Assembly (NCBI RefSeq): GCF_002115785.1
Contig: NZ_JFJY01000001.1
Span: forward strand, 496,001-560,000
DNA: 64,000 nt
Reading direction: 5' to 3'
From: Thalassospira sp. MCCC 1A03138
GTDB taxonomy: Bacteria; Pseudomonadota; Alphaproteobacteria; Rhodospirillales; Thalassospiraceae
The notes under the pieces were generated by a model, which was not told where the DNA came from, searched no databases, and saw only the letters and a list, made by a program, of their open reading frames with translations. This document shows positions 26,081 through 45,831 of this stretch, piece by piece. A program made the position numbers and the translations under genes. How positions within the stretch are numbered: the first letter of the stretch is position 1; every line of letters begins with the position of its first letter.

Positions 26081-26190
26081 GATCACACTGATTTGGCGCA
26101 ATCGGTTTTGCCCGATTGCGCCCGACTCCCCACCCCGTTAAAGTCGGGTTTGCGGACGCACACACGACACGGACAGGGAGTCGCATCGCC

Positions 26191-27630
26191 ATGGGTTCGA
26201 TGCAACCGGCCAAAATGCGCTGGGAAAATCTGCTTTCACCACACCGGCTTGATTTTCGGGATGGCAAGATCCGCCTGCCCGATGGCCATCCGCATCCAAG
26301 CCCTGACGGCAGAAGCCCGTTCCAGATCGATGTTGACCGGATCATTTTTTCATCCTCGTTCCGCCGTCTTCAGAACAAGACACAGGTTCATCCGCTTTCG
26401 GAAAATGACCATGTGCATACCCGCCTGACCCACACGATAGAGGTCGGATCGGTCGGGCAATCCCTTGGCCTGATGGCCGGTGCGCATATCGTCAAGCACC
26501 TGCCGAAAGGAAGCCCGATCACCATTGCCGATATCGGCTATATGGTACAGGCCGCGTGCCTGGCCCATGATATCGGCAATCCGCCGTTTGGCCATTCCGG
26601 CGAGGATGCGATCAATGAATGGTTCACCACATCGCGCCTTGCCAAGGAAGAACTGACCGGGCGGCTGACCGGGCCGGAGCTTGAAGATTTGCGGCATTTC
26701 GAAGGGAATGCGCAGGGGTTACGGATCATCAGCCAGCTTGAAATGAAGCGGTTTGATGGTGGGTTGAACCTGACTTACGGCACACTCGGCAGCTTCATCA
26801 AATATCCGCGCAGCACGTCGGTGCCCGATGCGCGCCGCCGCGAGTATACCGGTCTCAAGAAACCCGGATATTATCAGGCGGAACGCGACATCGCCCATGC
26901 GATTGCCAATGTTTGCGGGCTATCACCGCTTGACGGGTTTGACGGCGCGTGGCGACGTCATCCGCTGGTCTATCTGGTCGAGGCGGCCGATGACATCTGT
27001 TATTCGGTGGTCGATCTTGAAGATGGCTGGGAGCTTAACTGTGTCAGTTTCGAGCAGGTCGAACGCGCCTTGGCCCCGATTGCCCGCCATCCGGAAAAAT
27101 ATGAAGGCGACGCCGAAAAACGCTGGGCCGATTTGCGGGCCGAGCCATGGTATGCCGAGAAATCCGAAGATGACCGGATCGGCTTTTTGCGTGGCAAGGC
27201 GATTGGCAATCTGGTGAAGGCGGCGGTTGATGCCTTTATCGAGCATGAGGATGCGTTGCTTTCGGGCACGCTGGAAGGCGATCTGCTGGCCAATACGCCG
27301 CTTGGCAAGGATGCCAAAAACTGCAAGATGCTGGCGGTTGAGCGGATTTATAACGCGCCCCATGTCCTGCCGATTGAAATGGCCGGGTTCGAGGTCATCA
27401 ACGGCCTGCTTGACAGCTTTGTGCGGGCCGCGATTGACATCGAAGAACATCAGAAACACGGCAAACGCCTGCCGCCGCAGGCCGACCGGATCGACAAACT
27501 TCTGTCGGGCAAACTTTCGGAAGCCGACGGGCTTTATGCCCGGATCATGCGGGTGATGGATTACATTTCCGGCATGACGGACCGCTATGCGGTGACGCTG
27601 TTTCGCAAACTCCAAGGCATTACGATTTAA
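26191..27630 (+). CDS. dgt: Deoxyguanosinetriphosphate triphosphohydrolase-like protein
   Basis: HD-domain dNTPase that removes triphosphate from dNTPs. From the ATG at 26191 (GGGAG upstream) it has 479 residues. The metal site is visible: RLTHTIEV supplies the first His, CLAHDIGNPPFGHSGED is the central HD, and YLVEAADDICYSVVDLEDG gives the later Asp. The N-terminal FSSSFRRLQNKTQVHPL is a family signature. It follows the type 1/2 dGTPase pattern, which keeps the dNTP pool balanced and can restrict phages in some bacteria. Substrate specificity cannot be read from sequence. Confidence 0.92.
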   Translation: MGSMQPAKMRWENLLSPHRLDFRDGKIRLPDGHPHPSPDGRSPFQIDVDRIIFSSSFRRLQNKTQVHPLSENDHVHTRLTHTIEVGSVGQSLGLMAGAHIVKHLPKGSPITIADIGYMVQAACLAHDIGNPPFGHSGEDAINEWFTTSRLAKEELTGRLTGPELEDLRHFEGNAQGLRIISQLEMKRFDGGLNLTYGTLGSFIKYPRSTSVPDARRREYTGLKKPGYYQAERDIAHAIANVCGLSPLDGFDGAWRRHPLVYLVEAADDICYSVVDLEDGWELNCVSFEQVERALAPIARHPEKYEGDAEKRWADLRAEPWYAEKSEDDRIGFLRGKAIGNLVKAAVDAFIEHEDALLSGTLEGDLLANTPLGKDAKNCKMLAVERIYNAPHVLPIEMAGFEVINGLLDSFVRAAIDIEEHQKHGKRLPPQADRIDKLLSGKLSEADGLYARIMRVMDYISGMTDRYAVTLFRKLQGITI

Positions 27631-27797
27631 CGGAAATGCCGCCTAAAGTATTGAGAAACATATCATATTTATCACAGTAAGTTTCTACCGGGAGCTTTTG
27701 ACGGGAATTTTTTCCATCATTCTTGAAAAAGTTCTTGATTTGTTCTTTTCGTTGTGTCATAAAGATAAAGTCAACAGGACAAATGGGTCCGGAGACA

Positions 27798-27832
27798 AAA
27801 CCCGCAAAGCGTGATTCGCTTTGCGGGTTTTT
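27798..27832 (+). terminator. Strong terminator downstream of dgt
   Basis: AACCCGCAAAGCG and CGCTTTGCGGGTT form a 13-pair stem around TGATT, followed by TTTT. It lies about 170 bp past the dgt stop. With A residues before the stem it may act in both directions. An AT-rich stretch just upstream could hold the promoter of a short RNA, but this is not supported. Confidence 0.75.
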
Positions 27833-28500
27833 TGCGTTTCGGGCGGCAAAGACAGGAATGGGATGATGACAGGGCAGCGATCTGACGGGATGAAATGGCG
27901 GGGGTGGCATCGCCGAAGGGGCATCACTGGCGCATGGAAAAGTCATTACGGCGGTGGTGTGTTCGTGCGGTAAGGCCGCGGGAAATTTGCGAAAACTGTG
28001 GTTTGTCATGACGGGAGAGATGTGCCCTTGGGGCAAGGGCGTTTGTTCGGGGCAGCGAGAACCGGGGCGAAGTTGGTTCAGTCCGGTCGGTGAAGCGTGA
28101 CAATGCCGAGAATCAGCGGGCCCGAATTGCGCCCGGATTGGATCGGCTGGCCGGGTTGCCGGGGTGGCAAGCAAGATCGGTTGCCAGCGGGGCGATGGTG
28201 CATTCGGACATGCCAAAAGGCCGGTCATCGGTGGCGGGACGTGCGCCTGCCATGCGACAACGTTCTTGCCTTTGGGGCGAGGTGCGTTTTGGGGCAACCA
28301 AGAGCGGCGAGTGTTTGTTCGGGGCAGCTTGGTCCGTCCGGGGCGTGGTCCGTCCAGTGGGTGGCGTTTGGCGATGTGCAGGGGGCTGCGGGTTTGGCGG
28401 ACTGGATTGGTGGCGGGCCGATGTGCGTTTGGGATGCAGTGGGGCAGCGGGGGCGGCTTGTGGGCTTAGCTGGCGGGGCTGGCTTTGGCGATGGATCAAA

Positions 28501-28588
28501 ATCGTCATTCCGGGCGCAGCGCAGCGTAGACCCGAAATCCATGCTCCATTGAAAGAGACTGGATTCCCGCCGTCGCGGGAATGACGAT
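28501..28588. repeat. REPIN-like element with 11-bp terminal inverted repeats
   Basis: ATCGTCATTCC (28501-28511) is the exact reverse complement of GGAATGACGAT (28578-28588). Inside the right arm is ATTCCCGC/GCGGGAAT with a CGTC loop. The left arm contains the imperfect stem ATTCCGGG...CCCGAAAT. Two palindromes in inverted orientation are the structure of a REPIN, mobilised in trans by RAYT transposases. A single related unit is at 14937-14960. Confidence 0.6.
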
Positions 28589-28650
28589 CAGGTCGGGAAG
28601 GCTTTGCCCGCAGTCTGAAAAGCCCGGCACAAGGACCGGGCTTTGGTTTT

Positions 28651-30019: not shown

Positions 30020-30209
30020 TACATTTTTTATGTGTTTTATATTTATAGAACACTATTTTCTGCGTTAATAAATCCATGATCCGGCCCCGATGCCGGACGT
30101 AGAAATCGGACGCAGAAACGTTGCGGTGAAGCTTTTCCTGCACTTTTTGAAATTTCACCCTATATTGGGCGCGAATTTAAGCGCTTCGCATGACAAAGAG
30201 ATCCCGCCG

Positions 30210-31286
30210 ATGTCCTCGATTGAGCAAACCAGCAGCGTATCATCCCCCGCCCCTGCCACCGGTTCCATCGCCCCCACCCCGCACAGGAATGTTGCGATAT
30301 GGCTGTTTTTTGTGGCGGCCATGGTGTTCATCATGGTGGTGATTGGCGGCCTGACGCGGCTGACCGAGTCCGGGTTATCCATCGTGGAATGGCGGCCCTT
30401 TACCGGGATCATCCCGCCAATGAACGAGGCGGACTGGATGGCGCTTTATCAGCAATACAGCCAGTATCCGGAGTTTCAGAAGATCAATGCCTGGATGTCG
30501 GTCGAGGATTTCAAATCGATTTTCTGGCTGGAATTCATTCACCGGCTTTGGGGCCGGTTAATTGGCGTTGTGTTCTTTGTGCCGTTCGTCTGGTTCCTTG
30601 CCAAAAAATCCATTGATGGCGCGACCAAATGGAAGCTTTGGGGCCTGTTCATCCTTGGCGGCTTGCAGGGGGCGATGGGCTGGTACATGGTCATGAGCGG
30701 CCTTGTCGACCGCCCCGATGTCAGCCAGTACCGCCTGACCGCGCATTTCGGTCTGGCGCTGGTGATTTTCATCGCGTTGATGTGGGTCGGGTTTAATCAA
30801 TATGCCCCGCGCGGCATTTCAACCCATGCGTCGAAACGCGGCTGGCAGCTTCTGGCGCTGATCGTGTTTACCGCCCTTTCGGGCGGCTTTGTTGCCGGGA
30901 TCAATGCCGGACATACCTATAACACCTTCCCGCTGATGGACGGGCAACTGATCCCCGACGGGCTGTTTGTCTATAGCCCGACATGGCTGGCGCCATTTGA
31001 AGACCATATGACGGTGCAGTGGGATCACCGGTGGCTGGCGAAACTGACCTTTGTCATGGTGATCCTGTTCTGGTGGCGGGCGGGGAAATGGAACCTGTCA
31101 CCGCAGCAACGCCTTGCCACCCATCTGGTGCTGGCGGCGGTTTGCCTTCAGGTGACATTGGGGATTTCAACACTGCTGTCGGTTGTGTGGCTACCGCTGG
31201 GTGTGGCGCATCAGGCGGGTGCCGTCATCCTTGTTGGGGCGATGACTTATGCGGTTTACAGGTTGTCGGGAGATCGGGGTGCTTGA
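30210..31286 (+). CDS. ctaA: Heme A synthase, COX15/CtaA family
   Basis: Inner-membrane enzyme that oxidises heme O to heme A for aa3-type cytochrome oxidase. From the ATG at 30210 it has 358 residues and about eight transmembrane segments. Its conserved histidines sit in the usual motifs: IHRLWGRLIG, RLTAHFGLA and WDHRWLAKL with VAHQAGA near the end. VIGGLTRLTESGLSIVEWRP is the family's N-terminal signature. The alphaproteobacterial (type 2, COX15-like) subgroup is clear. It precedes, with no visible terminator, the convergent SIR2 gene 44 bp away. Confidence 0.94.
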   Translation: MSSIEQTSSVSSPAPATGSIAPTPHRNVAIWLFFVAAMVFIMVVIGGLTRLTESGLSIVEWRPFTGIIPPMNEADWMALYQQYSQYPEFQKINAWMSVEDFKSIFWLEFIHRLWGRLIGVVFFVPFVWFLAKKSIDGATKWKLWGLFILGGLQGAMGWYMVMSGLVDRPDVSQYRLTAHFGLALVIFIALMWVGFNQYAPRGISTHASKRGWQLLALIVFTALSGGFVAGINAGHTYNTFPLMDGQLIPDGLFVYSPTWLAPFEDHMTVQWDHRWLAKLTFVMVILFWWRAGKWNLSPQQRLATHLVLAAVCLQVTLGISTLLSVVWLPLGVAHQAGAVILVGAMTYAVYRLSGDRGA

Positions 31287-31330
31287 AGGGGCTTGATGCC
31301 ACAACACGTGCATTTAAAGGACAGAAGAAA

Positions 31331-34300
31331 TTAGATCGCTAGGTCATAAAGACGTTGATACTGCTGATTCTCAACAAGGGTTTTCTCAGCCTCTTTCATC
31401 TCATTGAGCATTTCCTGAAGCGTATGTTTGTTCCAATTCTCGATGTTATTATCGGGAATCATTATCGCCAGCATCTTAAGCGTATCGATGGGCCATTTCC
31501 GATGGATTCCACTTTGTTGAATCTGCCAGAGCACATGTTCTGTTCCCGGCCTTAGGGATTGTTCCGCCCAATTGAGAGCGTCCGGAAAGGCGTCACCTGT
31601 TTTAATCAAGCATTCTACGAGCTCGATGGATGTCTTCGTCGTATTTCTAGCTTGAGCTTTTGGCCAGTAGGCTTGTAGCCAAGGGAAGCAAATATCCTTC
31701 CATATATCTGCTTGTTTTTCGATATTATCTCCAAGACGATCTTTGAATGATACAGCTATGTCGATAAGACCATCCTCAGGTAAACGGTCCACTACCAAGC
31801 GAACGTCTTCCGGTTTGATGATTGTACTCGGGTCCAAACTAGCGCCCACAAACAGATAAACGAGATTCGAACGTTGATCCCCCAACTCCGAATAATTTTC
31901 AAGAGCGGTAATAAAGTCTGTTTTGAATGCTGCCAGCAAGTTCGGCCCTGCACTCGCGGCCCACGCATAGGCAGCCCATAACTCTCGGGCTTCACCGGAG
32001 GTATCCCAGTGCATCCATGGCAACAGTGATGTCTTCGTCCAATCCGGTGCAATTGCAAAAAGATTTAATAGTTTGGAGGCCAACATGACCCGCCCCAAGC
32101 GGCCAGCCTCTAATGCAACGATAGAATCAAAATAAGCCAAAACAGGCTCAGGTAGCCCCCTACCAACTTCTGGCTGGTACTTCCAAAGCCGATTAACCGC
32201 CGCCTCAGCAAGCTGACCAGCAGCGCTGTTTAAAGCCTTAGTAAGAATGTCGTCAGTTTGAACCCTGGACTCATCAGTGACTGCACACCATCCTTTGTTC
32301 CAGAATAGTCGGAAAGTGTCCTCTTCTTTGACTAAACATTCCTCAGAGAAGCCTTCTATACAGGACGAAATCGCCGAGCTAGCCTCAGAATACAAACTAT
32401 CAGGAGCCTTGAGAAGAAGCCCCGCAAGATAAGAAAGCGTTCTGGGCCGAATTTTTCCTTCGCGACGGAGCGCGCTCGTACTCCATAACAAACTATTCCA
32501 ATATTTTGCTGGCCAGTCTCCCTTATCCGCCAGATTGCGAAGCACACGTAAGGCGCTAACAGGCCAAGTCATGTAAATGCCAGTAAATTCTTCCTCACCA
32601 ATCTCGCTTTCTCTGACTTGATTGGTTAGCTGATCGATGAGCGGCTTTTCCTGCCAGTCAGAGCGCACATGCTCATACGGATCAACCCATTGAGCTCTTC
32701 CGCCCCATGAAAGAAATTCGTCTACATCCAGAGCTTCGTCTTGTGGCGATTTATACGCCTCGGCGATTTGTCGCGTTTCAAAATTGAGCTCCACCCCCGA
32801 GGATGCAAGTTTACTCAGCCGGAGATTGATCTTTCTTTCTCGTCGCTGTTCATGACCTTCACTGCTTTCTTCTACGGGCGGGCCAATTCGAATGACCTCT
32901 ACCAACCGCTCTAAGTCTTCGGCAGGCAATCGCTGACCAGCCTTTCGCAGGAACACCATGACCTCGTGATAAAGCTCATTTGACCACACGTTTTGAGGGG
33001 TTCCGGCAAGCAATAGATTGGTTGCTGCATGAATATCCGCATTCGGATCCTCAGTAAGGACATGGAGCGCCAACCGGTGGAATAAGGGAATCTCACTTTC
33101 TAGCCATAAATTGAGCACGAGATTTGCATGAGAACTATTTCGCGCTGCAACTGCAAAGTATCCGTCCCGCGCCCAATCAATCAGAAAAGTCCAATCATCC
33201 CTATCCCGGTTCTGTTCATGGTCTTCGATGGCAGGGCGATAGAATGAAGGAATACTAAATCCTACCTCATCTAGGGGCAGGAGCTGCGTGGCGTGACGCA
33301 ACTGTTCCGTAATCTCCAGTGCATGATTGGCAAAGAATTCCTCTTTGTATGGAGACCGGTCAAATCGGGCCCTCCGCCAATGCTCACCGTCAGTAACCAA
33401 CTTGAAATGTGCGCAATCCTCCAAAAACGTCAACGGAGCCGGGTCATCGTCGCGCAGATTTCTAAAACTAAGATGCCTTGATGGCCCCGGGACGACAATC
33501 AGGTGCGGCTTGGAAGTTTCGACAATAGCACGCCCGAGAAGCTTGCGTTCTGCATCTGATGCCGCGTTTACAACCAAGCCTTCCCACCAGAGGTCTTCAC
33601 GATGGTCGATAGGAGTATTTTGCGTTAGGACAGTCCATAAGAGACGCAGTCGATCTGGCAATTCTGGTGGTTCATTTTCACCGCCTCTCTTCTGGGAAAG
33701 ATGGTGGCGCACTTGATCGCGGAAGAAAGGATGGAGGCAGCCACCTTTGCGCGCCGCCCAACCCAAGACTTGAGGAACATGCAAATGATTGGCAAGCCAA
33801 CGGGCAAGTTGTGTGGAAATATCATCTAAAGCTGCATTCGCGTATTGAGCAAAGACGCCCGCTACGATGGGCACACGTTTTACGCTTCCATCAGCAAGCT
33901 TGTCCACCGGCCTTGATAGAAGCCCCGCCTCATCGAAAACGTCGAGCCACCCTGCAAGAATAGGGAAGTCATTCTCATCCGTAATCACTTCGGCTTCTGC
34001 GAGTGCTTTAGCCGTTGGCTTGTCCGATAGAGCCCAAGTCACACGTTGAGCAATTGGGTCCTGCGCGTTAGACGGCAACTTGCGTAGCTCATCGAAAACG
34101 ATTTGACGGCGTAAATTAATTGGGTCTCTACTAATATCTGCCCATCTGACAAGCGTATCCGTCAGCTTTCCAAAACCGTCTTGAGCATCGAACAAAATTG
34201 GCGTTACGTTTTTGCCCTGCCAAGCCAAATCTGCTCTTCTTCGCCCTTCTTCGCCATCTTTGAAATCGGCGAACGCATAAGCTTTCTGGAAACGCGCCCC

Positions 34301-34984
34301 TCTTTGGCGTTCTGCGGCCAGCGCATCAACCATATATGACATAACCGGGTCGTTCAGGCTGTAGCCCACGAATACGATGGTAAATTCGCGGAACAACTCC
34401 GTAATGAACCGCGACGCCCACCGTTCCGTGAGATAGGCACGTCCGAAATCGGCGGCTGTCAGAACAAGGCTCTGCCCGTTGGTATCCGTATCCGTAATTC
34501 TTCCATGAAGATATACGACAGAACCCCAACCGTGAGGCTTGGGAAGGGGAAGCTTCGGTGCAGCGTCAAACAAGATGTTGGGATCGGCAAGCTCAAAACG
34601 ATCATCAAAGTTAGTTGTAACAAGACGAATAAAACCACCTGAGTGACGTGAAAGGTCGAGAAGCGCCTTATGGGTAACCAATGAATTCTCCGGAGGCTGC
34701 ACGGTAAGGATATTAATCGCCTCACGCCGGAGAACACCATCATTCAAACGATTTTCGAGTAACCCAAGAACCTTATCGAGTTGACCTTTTTCACAGAGGT
34801 CTTGTTCCAATTCCAACTTCGCTTGGGCGGTACGTTCATAAATTTGCGACACAAGCCCATCAAACATCGGCAAACCTGTGCTTACCGAAATTCCCGACCC
34901 GCAAAAGAAAACGACTTTGCCATCATCCCGAAGATTCAATAATTCGACCGGAATATTCGGCCCATTCTGTATCAACTCAGGCAT
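31331..34984 (-). CDS. SIR2-domain protein, large, probable anti-phage defence gene
   Basis: 1217 residues. The first ~290 form a SIR2-like NAD-binding domain: CGSGIS at 28-33 (the GAGxS equivalent), TTNFDD at 123-128, a catalytic histidine H160 in YLHGRI, and GYSLND at 207-212. The remaining ~920 residues are mostly helical, Trp/Leu-rich and without membrane segments or known enzyme motifs. They may be the large C-terminal sensor region seen in SIR2 defence proteins such as Dsr1, possibly the DUF4020 family, which I cannot confirm. Such proteins sense phage and deplete NAD+. The gene stands alone, with lower GC and different codon use than its neighbours, inserted between the housekeeping genes ctaA and DUF3422. 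Confidence 0.8.
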   Translation of the reverse strand: MPELIQNGPNIPVELLNLRDDGKVVFFCGSGISVSTGLPMFDGLVSQIYERTAQAKLELEQDLCEKGQLDKVLGLLENRLNDGVLRREAINILTVQPPENSLVTHKALLDLSRHSGGFIRLVTTNFDDRFELADPNILFDAAPKLPLPKPHGWGSVVYLHGRITDTDTNGQSLVLTAADFGRAYLTERWASRFITELFREFTIVFVGYSLNDPVMSYMVDALAAERQRGARFQKAYAFADFKDGEEGRRRADLAWQGKNVTPILFDAQDGFGKLTDTLVRWADISRDPINLRRQIVFDELRKLPSNAQDPIAQRVTWALSDKPTAKALAEAEVITDENDFPILAGWLDVFDEAGLLSRPVDKLADGSVKRVPIVAGVFAQYANAALDDISTQLARWLANHLHVPQVLGWAARKGGCLHPFFRDQVRHHLSQKRGGENEPPELPDRLRLLWTVLTQNTPIDHREDLWWEGLVVNAASDAERKLLGRAIVETSKPHLIVVPGPSRHLSFRNLRDDDPAPLTFLEDCAHFKLVTDGEHWRRARFDRSPYKEEFFANHALEITEQLRHATQLLPLDEVGFSIPSFYRPAIEDHEQNRDRDDWTFLIDWARDGYFAVAARNSSHANLVLNLWLESEIPLFHRLALHVLTEDPNADIHAATNLLLAGTPQNVWSNELYHEVMVFLRKAGQRLPAEDLERLVEVIRIGPPVEESSEGHEQRRERKINLRLSKLASSGVELNFETRQIAEAYKSPQDEALDVDEFLSWGGRAQWVDPYEHVRSDWQEKPLIDQLTNQVRESEIGEEEFTGIYMTWPVSALRVLRNLADKGDWPAKYWNSLLWSTSALRREGKIRPRTLSYLAGLLLKAPDSLYSEASSAISSCIEGFSEECLVKEEDTFRLFWNKGWCAVTDESRVQTDDILTKALNSAAGQLAEAAVNRLWKYQPEVGRGLPEPVLAYFDSIVALEAGRLGRVMLASKLLNLFAIAPDWTKTSLLPWMHWDTSGEARELWAAYAWAASAGPNLLAAFKTDFITALENYSELGDQRSNLVYLFVGASLDPSTIIKPEDVRLVVDRLPEDGLIDIAVSFKDRLGDNIEKQADIWKDICFPWLQAYWPKAQARNTTKTSIELVECLIKTGDAFPDALNWAEQSLRPGTEHVLWQIQQSGIHRKWPIDTLKMLAIMIPDNNIENWNKHTLQEMLNEMKEAEKTLVENQQYQRLYDLAI

Positions 34985-35064
34985 TCAATTGCCCCCCTTG
35001 AAACAGTATGAAACAGCGGTGCAACTTCAACAACACCAAACCACTCAACGACACTTTATAAGAG

Positions 35065-35081
35065 CATCATTTACAATGATG
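35065..35081. promoter_or_regulatory. Palindrome upstream of the SIR2 gene
   Basis: CATCATT (35065-35071), TAC, then AATGATG (35075-35081) is a perfect 7-bp dyad about 85 bp upstream of the SIR2 start, next to an AT-rich TTATAA stretch (35057-35062). It may be an operator or a promoter-associated element of this island. Confidence 0.35.
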
Positions 35082-35161
35082 ATGCAGCACTACCGTTCGG
35101 CATATTAAAGCTTAGATGCCCTCAATATGCTCCCAACTGCAAAGCCCGGCCTAAAACACCC

Positions 35162-43600: not shown

Positions 43601-43689
43601 CCCGTTTCTTGCATTTCACATGCGATCAACCGAAGCTGAATATCCTGTTACCTAAAGCCCCTGCCCCACCTTACAGAACCGAGGCCCCG

Positions 43690-44703
43690 ATGAATTTTTC
43701 GTCTGATAATGTGTCGCCGATCTGCCCGGAAATCCTCGCCGCGATTGCCGAGGCCAGCGATCCTGCCCTGCCCTATGGTGCGGACGCGGCGAGCCAGCAG
43801 CTTGATCACGCGTTTTCGGACCTGTTTGGCAAAGAGGTCGCGGTGGTGCCGGTTGCCACCGGGACGGCGGCCAATCTTGTCGGGTTGTCGGCACTGGTGT
43901 CCCCGTTTGGCGGGGTGGCCTGCCATCATCAGGCGCATATCAACCGGACGGAATCGACCGGGGTGGCATTTTATGGCAACGGGGCAAAATTGATGACCAT
44001 GGACGGGCCATCGGCGAAGCTGTTGCCCGAAACACTTGATGCGTTTTTAACCCGCGAAAACACCCATGGCATGCATTCGGTTGATCCGGAATGTGTGGCC
44101 ATCACGCAGGCGACCGAATTCGGCACGATCTATGACGTTGATGAGGTGCAGGCGATTGGCAGGGTAACAAAAACACACGGCATGAAGTTCTTTATGGACG
44201 GGGCGCGGTTTGCCAATGCCATTGCCGCCCTTGGCTGCCATCCGGCCGATATCACCTGGAAGGCGGGGCTTGATGTTTTAAGCTTTGGCGCGACCAAGAA
44301 CGGCGCGATGGCGGTGGATGCGATCATTCTGTTTGACCCGTCATTGCGCGCAAGGGTCGAAAAGGCGCGTAAGCGCGGCGGGCATCTGTTTTCCAAGCAT
44401 CGTTATCTGGCCGCACAGCTTCTGGCCTATGTGAAGGATGATCTGTGGCTGCGTAATGCGCGCCATGCCAATCAGGCCGCAAGCGCCCTTTGCCAGTCGC
44501 TTGAAACCCTTGGCGCACGAGCGGCCTTTGCCCCGCAGGGCAACGAGCTGTTTGTGCATATGGATGACGATCTGGCAGAACGGTTGCGCAAGGCCGGGCT
44601 GGTCTTTCGGCCATGGCCCGCGGTCGGGCCAGATGCGTTTCGCTTTGTTAGCGGCTGGAACAGCCCGATTGAGGCGATCCGCGCGTTACCGGAAACACTA
44701 TAG
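43690..44703 (+). CDS. ltaE: Low-specificity L-threonine aldolase, copy 1
   Basis: PLP fold-type I enzyme that splits threonine to glycine and acetaldehyde. 337 residues from MNFSSDNVSPICPEIL. The phosphate-binding ATGTAANLV, the active-site HHQAHINRTES, MDGARFANA, and the PLP lysine in FGATKNGAMAVDA are present. It lies about 100 bp upstream of a second, similar gene on the same strand. The start at 43690 is chosen because the family begins there. No ribosome site stands out. Confidence 0.9.
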   Translation: MNFSSDNVSPICPEILAAIAEASDPALPYGADAASQQLDHAFSDLFGKEVAVVPVATGTAANLVGLSALVSPFGGVACHHQAHINRTESTGVAFYGNGAKLMTMDGPSAKLLPETLDAFLTRENTHGMHSVDPECVAITQATEFGTIYDVDEVQAIGRVTKTHGMKFFMDGARFANAIAALGCHPADITWKAGLDVLSFGATKNGAMAVDAIILFDPSLRARVEKARKRGGHLFSKHRYLAAQLLAYVKDDLWLRNARHANQAASALCQSLETLGARAAFAPQGNELFVHMDDDLAERLRKAGLVFRPWPAVGPDAFRFVSGWNSPIEAIRALPETL

Positions 44704-44805
44704 GCATCATTGCCATTCGAACGGATCGCGTGTGATAAAGGTTGGTCAGGTTGCGGGGCAGTCCCCGAAGCCTATGGACGCCACCACAAGATACGGACCC
44801 GTTCG

Positions 44806-45831
44806 ATGAATTTTGCCTCTGACAATGTATCGCCCCTGTGCCCGGAAATCCTGGCAGCCCTCGAACATGAAGCCAGCGGCAATGCGCCTGCCTATGGCAG
44901 TGACGACACCAGCCGTCAGCTTGACGCGGCCTTTTCCGAATTGTTTGACCGTGAGGTCGCGGTTGTTCCGGTCGCCACCGGGACCGCAGCAAACTGCATC
45001 AGCCTGTCGGCACTGGTATCGCCGTTTGGCGGCATCGTCTGCCATCACGAGGCCCATATCAACGAAGATGAAAGCACGGGCGTTGCGTTCTTTACCGGCG
45101 GGGCGAAGCTGATGCCGGTTGATGGCCCGGCAGCAAAGCTTGAGGCCGACAATCTGGATGCCTTTCTGGCAAGCCGGGTGGATCGCGGGGTGCATTCGGT
45201 GGCCCCGGAATGCGTGGCGATCACGCAGGCAACCGAACTGGGCACTGTTTACACCGCCGACGAAGTCGCCGCCATTGGCGCGATCTGCAAAAAGCGCGAC
45301 CTTCGCCTGTTCATGGATGGGGCGCGGTTTGCCAATGCGGTTGCCCATCTGGGCTGCCACCCGGCCGATATCACGTGGAAGGCCGGTGTTGATGCGATCA
45401 GCTTCGGGGCAACCAAAAACGGTGCGCAGGCGGTTGATGCGATTGTCCTGTTTGATACGTCACTGCGCGGCAAGGTCGAACAGGCCCGCAAGCGCAGCGG
45501 ACATCTGTATTCCAAGCATCGTTATCTAAGCTCACAGCTTCTGGCCTATGTGAAGGATGATCTTTGGCTGCGCAATGCGCGCCACGCCAACGGGGCGGCC
45601 AGAACCCTTTGTGACATGCTGGTTTCGCATGGGGCAACATTGGCCCATGCGGCCGATGGCAATGAGATTTTTGCGAATATCCCCGCCGAACTGGCGCAGA
45701 AAATGCGCGATGCCGGGGCGCTGTTTTATCCGTGGCCGTCATTGGGGGAGGATATTTATCGATTTGTGACAGCGTGGAACACGGATACCGCGCAAATCAG
45801 CGATCTTAATGATCGTATTGCGCGCAATTGA
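44806..45831 (+). CDS. Low-specificity L-threonine aldolase, copy 2
   Basis: 341 residues, clearly a tandem paralogue of the gene upstream: MNFASDNVSPLCPEIL, VATGTAANCISLSALVSPFG, MDGARFANAVAHLGCHPADI and SFGATKNGAQAVDAIVLFD are near-identical to copy 1, but loops and the C-terminus differ. All catalytic residues, including the PLP lysine, are kept, so it is probably active. The conserved differences around the substrate pocket (for example HHEAHINEDES against HHQAHINRTES) may change specificity towards another beta-hydroxy amino acid. The gene is followed by a hairpin. Confidence 0.88.
   Translation: MNFASDNVSPLCPEILAALEHEASGNAPAYGSDDTSRQLDAAFSELFDREVAVVPVATGTAANCISLSALVSPFGGIVCHHEAHINEDESTGVAFFTGGAKLMPVDGPAAKLEADNLDAFLASRVDRGVHSVAPECVAITQATELGTVYTADEVAAIGAICKKRDLRLFMDGARFANAVAHLGCHPADITWKAGVDAISFGATKNGAQAVDAIVLFDTSLRGKVEQARKRSGHLYSKHRYLSSQLLAYVKDDLWLRNARHANGAARTLCDMLVSHGATLAHAADGNEIFANIPAELAQKMRDAGALFYPWPSLGEDIYRFVTAWNTDTAQISDLNDRIARN

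Follow-up and report, generated by a model that had tools for sequence, protein, structure and literature searches.

The solitary gene between ctaA and a DUF3422 gene in the window (the whole 64,000-nucleotide stretch of Thalassospira sp. MCCC 1A03138 DNA that was analysed) very probably encodes a single-gene anti-phage defence protein, belonging to a divergent branch of the Dsr1 family. A defence-associated sirtuin had been proposed at this position in an earlier sequence-only reading, and at the level of sequence comparison this is supported by homology to Dsr1 over the full length, by an aligned catalytic pair, and by the variability of the junction in which the gene lies. From these comparisons we infer the NADase activity of the protein, its protection against phage, and its trigger.

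The reading frame opens with ATG and continues for 1217 codons without an internal stop (Table 1). Its exact coordinates on the minus strand and all four motifs quoted in the sequence-only reading were borne out, these being CGSGIS (residues 28–33), TTNFDD (123–128), H160 within LHG, and GYSLND (207–212). The only Pfam match above the cut-off was SIR2_2 (E 9.3e-20, residues 121–263). The gene had also been described as lower in GC than both neighbours, and we see a GC content of 0.493 and a GC3 of 0.475, against 0.567 and 0.712 for ctaA and 0.604 and 0.720 for the DUF3422 gene. No sigma-70 consensus was found on the gene's strand within the upstream gap, and the promoter scan gave 2 sites versus 4.3 in shuffles. 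Terminator-like sites numbered 9 versus 3.9 in shuffles; eight of these lie inside the dsr1-like gene and one in ctaA, and they are taken as chance or coding structure.

Table 1 Features of the dsr1-like locus, in positions of the window
Feature	Position	Strand	Basis
ctaA/COX15, left flanking core gene	30090..31286	+	Pfam, junction comparison
Variable segment between ctaA and DUF3422	31292..35158	.	Homology ends in G028 and G025
dsr1-like gene, 1217 aa (1218 codons with stop)	31331..34984	-	ORF, Pfam, PADLOC, NCBIfam, AlphaFold2 model
C-terminal helical region, residues 291–1217, predicted sensor/regulatory	31334..34114	-	PADLOC match, model to residue 1195; role by analogy to DSR2
SIR2 (predicted NADase) domain, residues 1–290, candidate catalytic N125 and H160	34115..34984	-	Pfam, alignments, model
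177-bp upstream gap, presumed promoter	34985..35161	-	G-rich RBS-like stretch directly before ATG
DUF3422 gene, right flanking core gene, convergent with ctaA	35162..36436	-	Pfam, junction comparison

A comparison of the C-terminal ~900 residues with Dsr1 had been suggested, and this was positive along the whole length of the protein: the PADLOC Dsr1 profile PDLC04167 matched residues 4–1216 through profile positions 3–1239 of 1248 (594.6 bits, E 9.8e-179). Such E-values rule out chance matching of the sequences. The NCBIfam Dsr1 model (NF041818) gave 735.2 bits, about half of its curated equivalog cut-off of 1400, while three fellow members of the same clade scored 673–749 bits, and the E. 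coli H6 and G190 proteins scored 1674 and 1895 bits, respectively. A family alignment of 26 rows was assembled, in which L120_G203 and L093 are one protein counted twice; the tree used 24 of these rows, dropping L120_G203 as well as L122_G176, for which only 699 columns were aligned. The window protein falls in a 100/100 clade with the G043 protein (63–64% identical), the G315 protein and an Aestuariivita metagenome-assembled genome. A second 100/100 clade holds seven named Dsr1 proteins (from E. coli, Shewanella, Nitrosococcus, two Pantoea, Duffyella and Agrobacterium) together with the G190 protein. Both clades and the long-branched G366 row form one 99/96 group at the midpoint root. As the tree leaves the order of these three lineages unsettled, a strict sister relation between the window clade and the named Dsr1 clade is not claimed.

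Like Dsr1 (NF041818; PADLOC PDLC04167 and PDLC02183), the window protein is the product of a single gene and has an N-terminal SIR2 domain with the same motifs, and the C-terminal part is likewise long in both and can be aligned end to end. Seven C-terminal residues (W346, W396, P493, W627, W829, W1107 and P1108) do not vary across an alignment of 21 rows, among them six named Dsr1 proteins. In length, six of the seven named proteins have 1263–1291 residues and that of Agrobacterium has 1211 (counting their reading frames from the first start codon), compared to 1217 here. Unlike them, however, the window protein belongs to a separate clade and is only 27–30% identical to them overall and 22–25% after residue 300, so its trigger may differ from theirs. 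Because homology is full-length but the clade is its own and the score lies under the cut-off, the sequence is placed in the Dsr1 family, broadly taken, as a divergent member with a branch to itself, and is not taken for the NCBIfam equivalog.

Within the SIR2 domain, S33, T123, T124, N125, D127, H160, G207, Y208 and D212 are identical in 26/26 rows (one protein appearing twice). In a profile built from 21 family members, N125 fell opposite N133 of DSR2 and H160 opposite H171, with the DSR2 numbering counted from printed chain positions. Passages of the literature describe the N133A/H171A double mutant of DSR2 as a dead control (PMC10973363), and GAGXS and TTNXD as conserved motifs of these SIR2 domains (PMC12931631). 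A SIR2 site that is degenerate in a structural model had been named as an observation that would speak against a defence role, and at the level of sequence the alignment of both residues with the DSR2 pair instead indicates an intact SIR2 domain with a conserved catalytic pair, for which NADase activity is predicted.

An AlphaFold2 model was generated for residues 1–1195 with 17 sequences (mean pLDDT 79.7, pTM 0.48). The alignment behind it comprised L038 and 15 of the 27 viral loci described below; eight near-copies were left out, as were the broken or partial frames L135, L137 and L141, and L151, in which no ORF was found. The model has an alpha/beta SIR2 domain up to about residue 290, a border read from its helix/strand pattern, and mostly helices thereafter, in keeping with the ~920 mostly helical C-terminal residues predicted earlier. 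Segments with pLDDT below 50 include 359–383, 502–519, 571–582 and 746–780. Among the best 50 PDB matches listed, ranks 1–35 are all DSR2 chains and the remainder are DSR2 and ThsA. The partial DSR2 chain 8wyc_D, of 273 residues, superposes with a TM-score of 0.71 on the target, whereas DSR2 chains of more than 900 residues superpose loosely (0.18–0.20 on the query and 0.22–0.24 on the target), and for this reason the model supports the SIR2 fold while the likeness of the C-terminus to that of DSR2 is suggestive only. For the latter, Foldseek gave E 2e-10 over the chain, with a TM-score of 0.19–0.23 for that match. A search of a viral structure library with the model gave no match at E ≤ 0.001.

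Several SIR2 systems had been listed as analogues; of these only Dsr1 proved to be a family match, while sequence matches to ThsA and DSR2 were confined to the SIR2 part. DSR2 (PDB 8wkt, 8wy8, 8wyc and others) resembles the window protein in joining SIR2 to a long C-terminus in one chain and in the catalytic pair. It differs in that its profile matches the SIR2 region only, in that its chains of more than 900 residues do not superpose whole, and in that the window protein shows no DUF4020, a domain suggested earlier for the C-terminal ~900 residues, among Pfam matches with E up to 1. Membership of the DUF4020/DSR2 group is not supported by the profile and Pfam results. The same Pfam search gave no SLOG, pAgo, HerA or STAND NTPase domain. 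Thoeris ThsA was set aside on the basis of weak ThsA matches lying only within residues 21–227, the lack of SLOG, and the absence of ThsB among ten flanking proteins, and SIR2-pAgo, SIR2-HerA and Avs5 on the absence of pAgo, HerA and STAND NTPase from both the window protein and the ten flanking proteins. These ten proteins gave no PADLOC match (E up to 0.001) except for a dGTPase at 26116–27630, taken as the usual housekeeping Dgt, and to that extent the gene is solitary, as had been claimed.

The insert itself was delimited by comparison with relatives: homology on the left ends at 31291 in G028, just past the ctaA stop, or at 31311 in G025, and resumes on the right at 35154–35159 (35159 in G028). 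The two ends of the insert show no repeats, an integrase ORF is absent from it, and the window has no tRNA; on these grounds a transposon or integron was rejected. The junction could be read in 26 of 28 relatives from the same genus, G011 and G012 having given no DUF3422 match, and the gap was taken as the distance between the tblastn match ends of ctaA and DUF3422. An empty site had been suggested as a check, and it exists: the junction is nearly empty (11–99 bp) in 20/26 relatives and holds other cargo, of 1.0–6.3 kb, in the remaining 6/26. In the earlier description of the gene as like an island cargo, ‘island’ is a little strong for a single-gene insert at a junction where some relatives have different cargo. 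As a control, four neighbouring junctions were assessed, and gaps of at least 900 bp were found in 0/26, 0/26, 0/26 and 0/22 genomes. The largest control gap, 876 bp at DUF3422-tldD in G009 (L049; median there 197), falls just under the 900-bp line.

Among the occupied junctions we see two known defence types, two candidates, and two without a defence call. The known types are a type IIG restriction-methylase (1068 bits) in G027 and, in G001, a SIR2 (E 2.2e-165) and HerA (E 2.1e-233) pair at L043:5272-8597, accompanied by a LysE-type transporter and a 319-aa protein. This means that two different SIR2 defence families share one site in the genus. The SIR2-HerA system resembles the window gene in having a defence-type SIR2 protein, but it has two genes, the window gene has no HerA among its ten flanking proteins, and the two SIR2 proteins best match different PADLOC families. 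The candidates are a Fic protein in G028 matching the PADLOC candidate system PDC-S24 (E 1.2e-182), with a 158-aa protein beside it, and a TrlF-family ATPase in G025 (677 bits, cut-off 350), which is a defence candidate by judgement and for which PADLOC matches were partial only (best Ppl, E 3e-23). The cargo of G008, for which the GntR ORF alone was scanned, includes a GntR regulator with weak PADLOC matches in the helix-turn-helix, and further ORFs that by eye are TonB receptor-like and iron-binding-protein-like; that of G007 is a 272-aa protein. Searches of Pfam, PADLOC and NCBIfam (E up to 0.01) left the proteins of 272 aa (L042:4742-5560), 158 aa (L040:6470-6946) and 319 aa (L043:9215-10174) unmatched, and these are candidates for new defence parts. 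Passages of a paper on the P. aeruginosa hotspots cDHS1 and cDHS2 (PMC10250203) describe defence genes of various kinds lodged between constant core genes, with lower GC and no single mobilising element. The ctaA-DUF3422 junction is alike in these respects, but differs in being short and convergent, nearly empty in most relatives, and occupied by one small block where it is filled.

Two other places in the window are recorded here. Adjacent ORFs of 364 and 373 aa at 43609–45831 share a near-identical stretch of ~15 residues close to their starts, and are apparently a tandem duplication. The region 27630–28650 is gene-poor, with GC of up to 0.62, GC skew of up to 0.28 and doubtful ORFs, and is possibly an intergenic repeat element.

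Conservation of the locus in all relatives, with no phage-protection phenotype, had been given as a second observation that would count against defence. A close full-length match was found only in the organism's own genome (1/29 genomes of the genus), with none in the 28 others. Five other genomes of the genus carry distant relatives at other places (35–37% identical in the SIR2 stretch). Another Dsr1-family gene (L068:8432-12232, G004) is an insert with an nnrS-like gene on one side and pepA on the other; among 28 loci examined, nnrS lies within ~350 bp of pepA in 16, and as the loci carry only 1.5 kb of flank the rest cannot be judged. From 385 genomes sampled across the class there were 16 with a match, the organism's own among them. 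Near-full-length single-stretch matches came from that genome, G043 and G315, and elsewhere the matches were partial or fragmented. The closest homologue is that of G043, from another family of the same class, which is 64% identical over its full length and has an open frame. Of 72,556 plasmid records, 59 gave a match, all below 60% identity; in 12 the match covered 80% or more of the query. One E. coli dsr1 allele occurs in 14 of the 5426 E. coli genomes searched.

Phage sequences were also searched. The window protein gave no match at E 1e-5 among 50,697 phage records, nor any in a scan of viral contigs with this protein alone, and a phage origin of the window copy was rejected on both results. 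A query made from the family alignment recovered 27 loci in viral contigs, with best segments 23–38% identical. The surroundings of three of these were inspected. Genes of the named Dsr1 type lie in prophage-like contigs at L138:7998-11834, among lambdoid early genes, and at L125:1407-5234, beside an integrase, and L144 has a Dsr1-type gene among other phage-like genes, all as judged by eye. Because these surroundings are phage-like, Dsr1-type genes probably travel in prophages too.

One could instead suppose that the protein belongs to a functionally distinct, related family that uses the same SIR2-helical plan and still depletes NAD+, but senses plasmids or other mobile DNA. The four-row clade with 100/100 support apart from the named Dsr1 proteins, the NCBIfam score, and the C-terminal identity of 22–25% all lean in this direction. 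We nevertheless consider it improbable, as homology to Dsr1 spans the whole length and the seven C-terminal Trp and Pro residues are invariant in 21 rows that include six named Dsr1 proteins. A housekeeping sirtuin-like enzyme, one that deacylates proteins or regulates NAD and plays no part in defence, would agree with a SIR2 fold that is common to deacylases and with a weak NCBIfam match to PRK00481 (E 0.14), but it is very unlikely in view of the single genome with a close full-length match, the low GC3, the variable junction, and a protein that matches Dsr1 and not deacylases. The lack of a consensus promoter above chance could be read as the mark of a dead or decaying gene, brought in by a recombination tract and non-functional. 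The uninterrupted frame, the intact catalytic residues and the open-framed homologue in G043 argue against this, and we give it next to no weight.

For the preferred reading, a defence protein of the Dsr1 family, a mechanism can be proposed from published findings on related proteins. Passages of these papers state that a T4 clone lacking nrdC.5 is blocked by dsr1 of E. coli ECOR17, which is also protective in MG1655 when carried on a plasmid (PMC9391042), that inhibition of phage replication by DSR1 does not involve cell death (PMC10952713, citing Garb 2022), and that the C-terminal domain of DSR2 senses the phage tail tube protein, upon which the SIR2 pocket opens (PMC10973363). The literature passages on Dsr1 do not state its trigger. 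By inference from these findings, the helical C-terminus would hold the SIR2 pocket shut and would bind a phage product during infection, and binding would release NAD+ hydrolysis, stopping phage growth. By analogy with DSR2, a structural phage protein would be the likeliest class of trigger. The gene would have arrived by horizontal transfer, and would pass from strain to strain through recombination in the conserved genes on either side, a route that the authors of the Pseudomonas hotspot paper also raise in the passages concerned (PMC10250203).

A bolder and rather doubtful proposal is that ctaA-DUF3422 is a core defence hotspot of the genus, where whole small defence systems are swapped by flank recombination without an integrase, that the window gene represents a subtype of Dsr1 responding to a phage trigger of its own, and that its sensor and the unnamed cargo proteins of G007 (272 aa), G028 (158 aa) and G001 (319 aa) are new defence parts.

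Overall, the dsr1-like gene is of an already known kind on a less-known branch, and the hotspot is the fresher part of these data. The analysis adds a branch close to Dsr1, full-length and supported by the tree, which lies below the NCBI naming cut-off, and such genes may therefore be named merely as SIR2 family proteins; many of the listed plasmid relatives carry the name ‘SIR2 family protein’ only. A divergent branch of this type helps to tell conserved regulatory residues from sensor residues, and the ctaA-DUF3422 junction offers a fixed address for defence-gene searches in the genus.
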